Under the pieces are notes generated by a model, which was not told the origin of the DNA, made no database searches, and saw only the letters and a program-made list of their open reading frames with translations. The position numbers were made by a program, and so were the translations under genes. A stretch of DNA of 64,000 nucleotides, taken from assembly GCF_000004075.3 (NCBI RefSeq), contig NW_022279564.1:124001-188000 (forward strand), read 5' to 3'. Shown in pieces: positions 30,157 to 52,586 of this stretch. How positions within the stretch are numbered: position 1 is the first letter of the stretch; the number at the start of each line of letters is the position of its first letter. The DNA is from Cucumis sativus. Lineage: Eukaryota; Streptophyta; Magnoliopsida; Cucurbitales; Cucurbitaceae.

Positions 30157-33100
30157 TCATGGATGGAGTCATAGAATCCATGCCTCAATATGCCAAGGAA
30201 CTGGTTGCCGGTGGCCTCGCCGGTGGAATTGCCAAGACCGTCGTCGCTCCACTTGAGCGTGTCAAGATTTTATTCCAGGTGATTTTTCTTCGTTTTTGTT
30301 TGCTTGATCGTGTTTTTTTTTCTTTCTTAATCTCGTCTTGTAAGTGATTCAATTGTGACTTTTTTTGGGAATCGAGCTCAATTCTCTAGTGTTTCGAAAT
30401 TAGTTGCATAATGGGTGTCTCTTGAGGTATTTGGCTTTGGAGTTCATGAATGTATGTTTTCTTTTACTTATTCTTTGTTCTCTCTTGGAAATTAGAATGA
30501 GATTCTACAAGAATGAGAGATGTTGTGGTGCATGTTTTTTTTTGGAATTTAACTTTTAATTTACCAGGAATAATGGGTTTCTTATAGATCAGTAAAAGAT
30601 GCAACTCCCATTAATTTTTTTTCAGTTCTGATTTTGGAAAAAGCAAGATGCTTTGGAGTCCATAACTTCATTGCATTTTACTTAATACATGGGAATAGAA
30701 TTCCCCACTGGCTATTATGAATCCTTTTTGTTTGTTTTGTTCTTGAATGACAAAGAAACTTCAATCTTAGGTAATAAAGTAAAAGATGCTCAAAATGAGG
30801 GGAGCTCAAGTCTAGGACCAATGAGATTACATGGAGACTCTTTTAAATTGGCTGAAGTGAAAAATAATGGCTTAAACTCTACCTTATTAGTGGAATATCT
30901 GGAGGAAATTTTTATTAGCAATTTTCTCTTCTTTAACATCTATAAAGGTTTCTGTACCTAAAGAACCATCAGTGACATAAAATGGAAAATACAGAGTTGA
31001 TTGATAAAATCTTGCTCTAAGGAAATATTTGAGGTATCTATCTATTAGATAAATCCAACGTTTCTCCTAAAGAATTATTGTCAAGTGATATGAAAGGAAA
31101 AAATGATTTGGATCTCAAGGCTATATAATTCACACAGCTCACATATTTAGAGGTTGAGAAATCAAGAAAAGGAAGAGAGAAATCCTCTAGCATACCTTTA
31201 GTGTTGTCTTCCAAATGAAGTACTTGACTTTCTTTAGATTCTTCGGATTCTAAAGAAGCTTGGCCTTTCCTTGAGAAATGGATTTTGATCTACCTACCAA
31301 AGTGTTATTCATCGATTTACTGGAGGACCCCTAGGGTCTGGATGCCAAAGCTTTGATTCTAAACTCAGGGCTTTCAAGGGAATTCCCCAAGGATTCTAAA
31401 ATGAAAGAGAGCACCATTCTCTTTTTTTCTTCGAGAAACAAACCACTTTTCATTGAAGATATGGAAAGGTACGATTAACTAAAAGAGGATAAACGCCCTG
31501 TGAGATTAGGAAAAAAAATGCTTTAGTTGGCAGTAATTTTGAAAGAGTATTTCCAAAAGTTACCGGAGCAAACTGAGTATAACTAAATAGTGCGGATTAG
31601 TTTTTCAAGATCTGCCTCTTATTCTATCTAAAGATCGACCCAACATAAAAAGAAAATGAGGAAGTAGGTTTCTGTTGTATATGTTTTGAGAAGCCTAAAA
31701 GTGGATCTTTATTTTTCATTGATAATGTAGAAAAATCTGCTGATCAAGAACAGTTATAGAGCAAAAGTTTACATTTAGTCTCAAAACCCTTCTTTTAAAG
31801 AACAAAGCCAATATTATCCTTCTCCACACCATCATACGCCTTCTCAAAGTCAATTGACGAATCGGTCCCCGTGCTTTTGTAACTTCTCGCAGTTATGGTT
31901 GCATTGGCAATGAGAATGAAGGGCATTAACTATATGTCTATCCCACAACTAAAGTCTTTGATTTTCTCCACAACTAAAGTCTTTGATTTTCTCCACAGCT
32001 AAAATCTTTGATTTTCTTGTTCATTCTCAGTTAATATTGGTATATCAGTTTTGCTCATCTCATTTTCATAATAAATATAGGATTAACCATCTAGTATACA
32101 CTGTTCATATTTAATGCAGTTCTTTCTTTTTCAATTTGTTTAAGCAAAGTTTCCCCCCAGATTTTTCAAGCATGAATTTCCCTTTCCAAAGCATGTACTG
32201 TGGAATTAACCAGCTGTTAAGCACTTTTTATCATTTTCGTTTTTGGATGTAGATGTTTTTGTTATATTTTAAATAAGGTTAAGATTTGATCTTCGATATA
32301 TGATTCTGAAGTCCACCCATTTTTTCTTTTTCACGGTGAAGTATTTTCCTAGAAGTTAACATCTGTACTTATTTTTCAACTTGTTAGACCAGAAGAGCAG
32401 AGTATCAAAGCATAGGACTACTTGGATCTATCAAGAAGATTTCTAAGACTGAAGGTTTTCTGGGTTTCTACAGGTGGGTACATAAAGTGCTATAATTTTT
32501 TTTGAGCTGAGGCCCCACCCCTCCCCCAACAAATGACATATTAGTGGATTTGATCACAGAGGCAACGGTGCTAGTGTCGCTCGGATTGTTCCTTATGCAG
32601 CGCTGCATTACATGGCTTATGAACAATATCGAAGATGGATTATCCTTTCTTTTCCAAATTTTAATAGAGGCCCCGTACTTGATCTTTTGGCAGGATCATT
32701 TGCTGGAGGAACTGCCGTGATTTTTACCTATCCTCTGGACTTGGTTCGGACTAAGTTAGCATTCCAGGTGAAGACTAAAAACATAAGCGTCCCTTCCCAA
32801 AACAAAAACGTATACAAAATTGTAAACTTCATTATAACTAGATTCATGAAAGCTATCTTTAGATGCGATAGTCTTGCTCCCGCCAGAATTGAATATGAAA
32901 AGAGTAGTATCATTGAACTTTGCCGTGAATAAATATATGGATTTCTCCTTACACACTACCTTCCTGTGTGAACATTCCAATCTAATTAGATCTGATACTG
33001 ATAGTGCAGGTTGTTGCTCCGTCAAAGTCAAGTATTCATGGGCTAGTAGTCCCGAGCATGTATATAGAGGGATTTCTGATTGTTTCTCAAAAACTTTTAA

Positions 33101-33855
33101 GGAGGCTGGACTTAGAGGTCTCTACCGTGGTGTTGGTATGCATTTCCAATTTGCTTATATAACTTTTGGCAATCTACTTTTCTGGGACTTACTTTTCACT
33201 TTGCGAGTTTTCCAATTAATACTCAACTTTCGTTGCCAGCCCCATCACTTTACGGGATTTTTCCATATGCTGGTTTGAAGTTCTACTTCTATGAAGAGAT
33301 GAAGCGGCATGTGCCGGAGGAACAAAAGAAAAATATTATGGTCAAGCTGGTATGTGGATCGGTTGCGGGTCTGTTAGGCCAGACCTTTACATATCCTCTT
33401 GATGTGGTTAGGAGACAAATGCAGGTAATAAGTTGCACCAAAATACATGGAAGAAATATATTAAAATGTTTGAATTCTGAACTAATATGGAGCTATGTGT
33501 GAAATTCGCCCAAACAGGTTCAACGTCTACTAGCATCCAACAATACAGAGATGATGGGAACATTTGAAACCCTTTCTTTGATAGCTAGAAAACAAGGTTT
33601 TAAACAGCTGTTTTCAGGTCTAAGCATCAACTACTTGAAGGTGAGAAATCAATTCCTTTACTTAATCTCCTTCCACATTTGTAGTTTAGTGTCTAAGCTA
33701 AGTTGTGTATGTTTCAGGTTGTTCCATCAGTAGCAATTGGGTTTACTGTATATGATGTAATGAAAACATACTTAAGAGTTCCATCCCGAGATGAAGCTGT
33801 GGTAGAAGTGGTAACAAATAAAAGAAACATCCAATCGTCCTCTCTTAATACATAA
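30153..33855 (+). CDS. Mitochondrial coenzyme A carrier (CoAc-type, SLC25 family), frameshifted in exon 4
   Basis: Inner-mitochondrial-membrane carrier importing CoA into the matrix. Seven exons: 30153-30278, 32388-32473, 32560-32767, 33010-33135, 33240-33424, 33518-33640, 33718-33855; all GT-AG. Three mitochondrial-carrier signatures are present (PLERVK, PLDLVR, PLDVVR), one per ~100-residue repeat, with six expected membrane helices. Exon 4 opens in frame with VVAPSKSSIHGLVV, then loses the frame at 33051-33053. One more C in that CCC run restores VVPEHVYRG and the rest of the carrier, 330 aa, the family length. No other defect is seen. The start could be 30153 or the better-context ATG at 30159, two codons later. 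Intron 1 (2.1 kb) contains a reverse-oriented LINE fragment. Best matches from memory are Arabidopsis CoAc1/CoAc2 (At1g14560, At4g26180). Confidence 0.9.
31418..31900 (-). mobile_element. Antisense LINE reverse-transcriptase fragment in CoA-carrier intron 1
   Basis: On the minus strand 31785-31870 reads SSIDFEKAYDGVEKDNIGFV, matching the plant LINE RT block with DFEKAYD, followed by a stop and KKGFETK. The lower-coordinate end is a CAATGAAAAGTGGTTTGTTT tail then A-rich sequence (T-rich at 31418-31425 on +), as at the other LINE ends here. It is internally deleted and full of stops. Confidence 0.65.
33051..33053 (+). other. Single-base frameshift in CoA-carrier exon 4 (C run one short)
   Basis: GTAGTCCCGAGCATG does not keep the frame; with four C it reads Val-Val-Pro-Glu-His, continuing the carrier. 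The frame upstream (phase 0 from 33010) and downstream (from 33051) both match the family. No alternative AG acceptor gives a conserved sequence. Confidence 0.88.
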
Positions 33856-51500: not shown

Positions 51501-52586
51501 CATCAGCACATCATTTTTTTAAATATATAAAACACGGACAGAACAAGGACATGAATTGTGAAAATATAGATTGTTTAAAATATATATCATTACGATATAA
51601 GATAATTAAATTCACAGTCAATGCATTTATGTGCTTAAGAGATTCGTTTGATATATCTCACTATCGCAATTTATTATTTTTAACATCTTCGTGTCTATTT
51701 TGTTTTTACTTAATAAGTACTCAATGCATGTCTAAAAAATGTTGGACCTATTTGATAAAGTACAACTGATATCTAATACGTCTATTGCACTAACAAGTTT
51801 TCGATACTTGTCCGACAACTATTCGACACTTATTGAACATGGACATGTTGGTAAAACTGAAGTGTCCGTGCTTCAACATTGCTCAACTTTGGACTGACAC
51901 ATGATCCTGTCAGAAAGGAGAAAACTATAATTATGCAATATCTCTGAAGCAATGTGCCTTGCATGCTGATCCCAAAGCAAACTAATTTGTTTGGTTCTTT
52001 ACTTGAACATTTGAAACTATTTGTAAAGAACAATACATAATAAAGCAGTTTCTTATATACAAACGCAATTTCATTTAATAATATTACATGTCTTAGGTTT
52101 CACAAGATGTCCCAAATATATGATGGTGGGGGAGAAAGACCAGAACTACGTGGGTTAAATCTAGAGGGACTTCGGCGCAATGGATTCACAGTGGAAGAGG
52201 TTGCAATTTGTGCAATTTCATTATGATGATTTGCAAATTACTTGCATAATTTAATAATATATATTTATATATGGAAGGGCTTACCATATATTTTGTTCAA
52301 GGATCCAGATCATTGGCTTGAGATCTGCATACAGGAAGATATTCATGTCTACTGATGCAAATTCTGAAGGGTTGGAAGAACGTCTCAACGAAGTGGTATT
52401 GCATATCAAATTCGACCCCTCAGTCTCATACAGACATACAACCTAAAGTTCGTTTCATTTTTGCAGGAACAGCATGAAAAATTGGCTCACATATCTTCAG
52501 TTCGTTCCATGATTCAGTCAATTCGTGCATCATTTGAACAAAATCGTCGGGGCATATGCAAATTCAGACTATGGAGTAGCTCTTAA
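48566..52586 (+). CDS. LPXA: Mitochondrial UDP-GlcNAc O-acyltransferase LpxA, two frameshifts in exon 8
   Basis: First enzyme of the lipid A-like pathway in plant mitochondria: transfers a 3-hydroxyacyl chain from ACP to UDP-GlcNAc. Ten exons: 48566-48632, 48736-48833, 49719-49843, 49944-50052, 50923-51015, 51118-51234, 51331-51414, 52097-52199, 52309-52395, 52467-52586; 334 aa once two lost bases in exon 8 are allowed for. The N-terminus MHSLFKPRRSFCSLNHF is Arg/Ser-rich, like a mitochondrial presequence. Left-handed beta-helix hexapeptides begin IHPTAVVHPNAVIG; the catalytic His is in CHIAHDC; the ELRGLNLEGLRRNGF block leads into the helical C-terminus. The exon 1 donor (GTTCGT at 48633) is weak but is the only nearby site giving the right phase; GTATCT at 48637 is the rival. 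Exon 8 breaks at 52114-52116 (A run) and 52128-52132 (G run). Arabidopsis counterpart At4g29540. Confidence 0.9.
51464..51900. repeat. Probable dispersed-repeat insertion in LpxA intron 7
   Basis: The 5' part is AT-rich. The 3' part has a chain of related words (ACTTGTCCGACAACTATTCG, GACACTTATTGAACATGGAC, AAGTGTCCGTGCTTCAACAT) that I recall as a common cucurbit interspersed repeat. No coding potential. Boundaries approximate. Confidence 0.45.
52114..52132 (+). other. Two single-base frameshifts in LpxA exon 8
   Basis: CCCAAATATATGATGGTGGGGGAG: with four A (52114-52116 has three) and six G (52128-52132 has five) the exon reads VSQDVPKYMMVGGERPELRG and is exactly 35 codons, matching the phase of both neighbours. 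As written it stops at the ninth codon. Confidence 0.88.

Follow-up and report, generated by a model that had tools for sequence, protein, structure and literature searches.

Four neighboring genes in this stretch of the Cucumis sativus genome have broken reading frames, which raises the question of whether they form a block of dying genes or whether the breaks were introduced by the assembly. The assembly analyzed comprises 226.6 Mb in 88 contigs and is presumably version 3 of the cucumber 9930 genome, published as 226.2 Mb in 85 super-scaffolds (PMC6582320). The window, i.e., the whole stretch of DNA that was analyzed, covers 64,000 bases of a contig of 190,030 bases (C62), and a second copy of it lies on a chromosome-sized contig of 32,926,272 bases (C1, 32.9 Mb). 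The window and the four genes, with the basis of each assignment, are as follows.

1..64000, plus strand: window, C62:124001-188000; second copy at C1 ~25,487,485-25,551,505, 62 indels and 3 substitutions apart
30153..33855 (ends approximate, read from the sequence), plus strand: mitochondrial carrier; Pfam PF00153 on several exons
34783..37636, minus strand: EFFECTOR OF TRANSCRIPTION (ET), GIY-YIG and zinc-binding repeats; PF19239, frames, and the melon protein aligned to both copies
42359..46235, plus strand: USP-type protein kinase; protein alignments and frames, last exon read from the sequence
48566..52586, plus strand: LpxA, UDP-N-acetylglucosamine O-acyltransferase; PF13720, with the proteins P0204 and P0206 aligned

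When the DNA of positions 33000-35600 was searched against the cucumber's own genome, it matched C62 and, over its full length, also C1. A single alignment between the window and C1:25485001-25555000 spanned the full 64,000 bases, with 99.88% identity. Both ends of C62 were found inside C1 in a comparison that covered C62:1-20000 and C62 from 84001 onward: C62:1 and C62:16001 are placed on C1 at offsets of 25,351,508 and 25,351,512, respectively, C62:97001 is placed at an offset of 25,363,476, and the right end of C62 matches up to C1:25553538. A redundant, unpolished contig should have a nearly identical counterpart within its own assembly and should differ from it mostly by indels at homopolymers; C62 has such a counterpart, and 62 of the 65 differences were indels, with a bias toward homopolymers. 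We are highly confident that C62 is a redundant contig that duplicates C1 ~25.3515-25.5535 Mb and in which raw long-read consensus indels were kept, the exonic ones being the frame breaks. A plasmid collection queried with 33-53 kb of the window gave no match, as expected of plant nuclear DNA. No published mention of this redundancy was found in a literature search or in the main text of PMC11207753, a null result that applies to these sources and does not prove absence.

Relative to C1, the window had 37 deletions, 25 insertions and 3 substitutions. An earlier note on this DNA had placed the frameshifts in a block of about 19 kb, at 33-52 kb. These boundaries did not hold, and neither did the lesions follow the supposed block of decaying genes: the 62 indels spanned the whole window, with 22 inside 33051-52132 (1.15 per kb) and 40 outside it (0.89 per kb; binomial p = 0.33), and a KS test for even spread of their positions across the 64 kb gave p = 0.47. 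What the note had caught is the coding part of a window-wide indel pattern. The preference for homopolymers that it described was evident throughout: 43, 40 and 29 of the 55 single-base indels lay in runs of at least 3, 4 and 5 bases, respectively, and such runs hold 27.3%, 13.7% and 6.4% of the window's bases, an enrichment that is biased upward by the measurement of run length in the longer copy. In a coarse check, 34 of the 51 open reading frames of at least 90 aa in the window were identical in C1. One result counts against a uniform picture of an unpolished contig: the first 5.5 kb of C62 had 2 substitutions and no indels relative to C1 (p = 0.005 if the rate of the window applied), which means that errors are unevenly distributed along C62. 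We also observed 28 consecutive C in AT-rich DNA (window 5071-5098), a run that is 2 bases longer than on C1.

All six frame breaks listed in the earlier note for the four genes were found, each at the position it gave or no more than 4 bases away. Every one was within a short run or adjacent to one, including the break at 35046-35049, which is itself outside a run but adjoins three C. The list was incomplete, however, and missed a seventh break, at 34973 near the 3′ end of the ET gene. In the mitochondrial carrier, a frame comparison near 33051 indicated that the frame entered at the splice acceptor stays open on C1, whereas the window loses it, and an open reading was seen on C1 only. The Pfam scores do not decide this case: PF00153 scored 25.7 bits on the C1 exon and 27.7 bits on the downstream frame of the window, and the upstream frame had no match. 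In the ET gene, the breaks near 34973 and 35049 occur in the window only, and the C1 copy ends like the melon ET. LpxA has two breaks within a single exon (near 52111 and 52128), both likewise confined to the window, and the exon is open on C1, where PF13720 scored 42.6 bits, vs. 23.3 bits on the window piece. The melon protein P0204 matches the C1 LpxA through the break site, as does the cucumber protein P0206, which was itself recorded from C1. An extra frameshift in exon 1 of LpxA, common to both copies, was considered and rejected, given that in the melon and cucumber proteins the exon ends at an earlier splice donor, with which the frame is preserved.

In the kinase gene, the two copies are broken at different places. 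The break near 43727 was found in the window only, and alignment of P0122 and P0126 to both copies showed that exon 1 is intact in the window and interrupted on C1, at the position corresponding to window 42495. The latter is likely to be an error in the main, chromosome-sized copy. P0122 (678 aa) is open at both sites and shows no difference from the window over 309 residues past the break at 43727. This protein comes from a contig of 2525 bases, which is too short for the 3.9-kb kinase gene with its introns, so P0122 most likely represents an assembled transcript.

When the four genes were combined, six breaks were found in the window only, one was shared (35547, in the ET gene) and one was found on C1 only (kinase exon 1). 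Because window-only, C1-only and shared breaks all occur, neither copy is faithful, and the unfaithfulness of both contigs fits error rather than decay. In the coding sequence of the ET, kinase and LpxA genes, the C1 side had 2 errors in 4.5 kb, vs. 0.6 expected from the published residual rate, which is not a significant excess (p = 0.12). The earlier note had treated its six shifts as one class; five of them differ from C1, and 35547 is identical in C1. Its interpretation of the sequence as poorly polished consensus is well supported by the 62 indels vs. 3 substitutions, with the homopolymer bias, and with the open frames of C1 or of relatives at the window-only sites.

Two explanations in which both copies are real were weighed against this interpretation. 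The presence of two copies in the assembly would be accounted for if a segment of about 200 kb had been duplicated very recently and one copy were decaying. Real divergence, however, yields the reverse of an indel-dominated pattern, and the 62 homopolymer-biased indels against 3 substitutions are the opposite of what such a history would leave. Moreover, C1 is broken in the kinase where the window is open, so there is no single decaying copy. We regard a real duplication as extremely unlikely. Other sequences give a mixed picture of the lesions: the kinase and LpxA are open in other records (the cucumber LpxA record being from C1 itself), the carrier is open on C1 only, and the ET gene is broken at 35547 in both contigs, with no independent cucumber record seen. 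That C62 carries the second haplotype of a heterozygous plant is no more likely than a duplication. Plant assemblies often contain haplotypes as separate contigs, but there are hardly any substitutions between C62 and C1, and 9930 is described as a highly inbred line (PMC6582320). We consider that the frame breaks are mostly an assembly artifact, not the marks of a block of dying genes.

The shared site in the ET gene requires separate consideration. Near 35547, C1 and the window are identical and both are out of frame, which might mean that this one break is a true cucumber allele and that the other shifts are artifacts. In addition to the agreement of the two contigs, this reading draws on a database protein, CSA_004505 (P0003, 422 aa), which carries the 35547 break and is the sole ET named as Cucumis sativus among the best 120 of 446 matches, with no cucumber-named open ET protein in that set. 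The recorded source of this protein, however, is that very 190,030-base contig, and with clustering of the protein set at 90%, a cucumber ET with an open frame could be masked within the melon cluster P0002. Against a true allele, the site lies at a short run, as the other errors do, and the repeat that contains it is open and in frame in the proteins read from melon, Benincasa and Cucurbita. Furthermore, an error common to both copies would escape a polishing procedure that ignores ambiguous reads. On balance, we think it improbable that the 35547 break is a true allele. The CSA_004505 model is an artifact, a shortened ET in which part of the sequence around the 35547 break is skipped and which stops at the 35049 break; it is present in the ncbi, uniref and nr sets. 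Additionally, the cucumber ET has an extra residue, N, at 35572-35577, just upstream of the shared break, that none of the proteins read from melon, Benincasa and Cucurbita has.

Returning to the redundant contig, its leftover indels are likely to have been caused by the duplicate itself, which would have stopped short-read correction of either copy. In the published account of cucumber v3, the contigs of a meta-assembly from six assemblies were polished with Pilon (-minmq 10); 156,931 indels were corrected and 30,546 were left as homozygous variants (PMC6582320). Over 226.2 Mb, these published counts correspond to 0.69 indels per kb corrected and 0.135 per kb left, and the window differed from C1 by 0.97 indels per kb. 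The 3 substitutions in 64 kb were fewer than expected from the published residual rate (p = 0.0002), which counts against this account. If both near-identical copies were present at polishing, short reads would have mapped ambiguously or would have fitted only the error-free copy. The ambiguous reads would then have been dropped by the mapping-quality filter, which may have frozen the raw PacBio indels in each copy. Such a failure should leave errors in the window only, on C1 only and in both copies, each of which was seen, but this falls short of proof, given that the C1-side errors were not significantly in excess (p = 0.12). The situation resembles the problem that Polypolish was described as addressing, namely residual indels after short-read polishing in the repeats of bacterial genomes (PMC8812927), in that homopolymer-length errors persist where repeated sequence makes short-read alignment unreliable. 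It differs in that the repeat here is an assembly artifact, a duplicate plant contig. Similarly, the false frameshifts mimic pseudogenes, as do the gene-fragmenting long-read errors treated by Kastor, although Kastor, as presented, deals with small genomes (PMC12007338).

A tandem array may explain why a second contig existed. Between C62:20000 and 97000, C1 carries about 12 kb more than C62. Full copies of a repeat are located on C1 at 25443917, 25452191 and 25460477, spaced by ~8.28 kb; C62 has one full copy (97001), and one further partial copy is present on each contig. C62:84001-94000 is full of internal repeats, and the array of ~8.3-kb units occupies C62:84001-101500 and C1 ~25.436-25.465 Mb, with more full copies on C1. 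If assembly resolved this array to unequal lengths in the two contigs, the difference could have kept them apart. A search with C62:84001-88000 returned neither C62 itself nor its C1 copy among the matches listed. One 2-kb stretch (20001-22000) was sampled from each of five other small contigs (C50, C60, C61, C63 and C70) among the 88, and no second redundant case was found there; the sampled stretches were repeats of high copy number, whose near-identical matches were spread over many contigs. As these five, where sampled, are multi-copy repeats rather than redundant contigs of single-copy genes, C62 is exceptional among the contigs examined, which also counts against the interpretation.

Based on these results, broken or duplicated gene models derived from C62 are artifacts, and at least one of them, CSA_004505, is already in public protein sets. 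The C1 region at ~25.35-25.55 Mb may itself keep uncorrected errors, one of which was seen in the kinase. The analysis adds nothing new to cucumber biology, with the possible exception of the ET site at 35547. If that allele were true, it would truncate a single-locus ET after the GIY-YIG domain and would thereby provide a natural test of the role of the C-terminal zinc-binding repeats.
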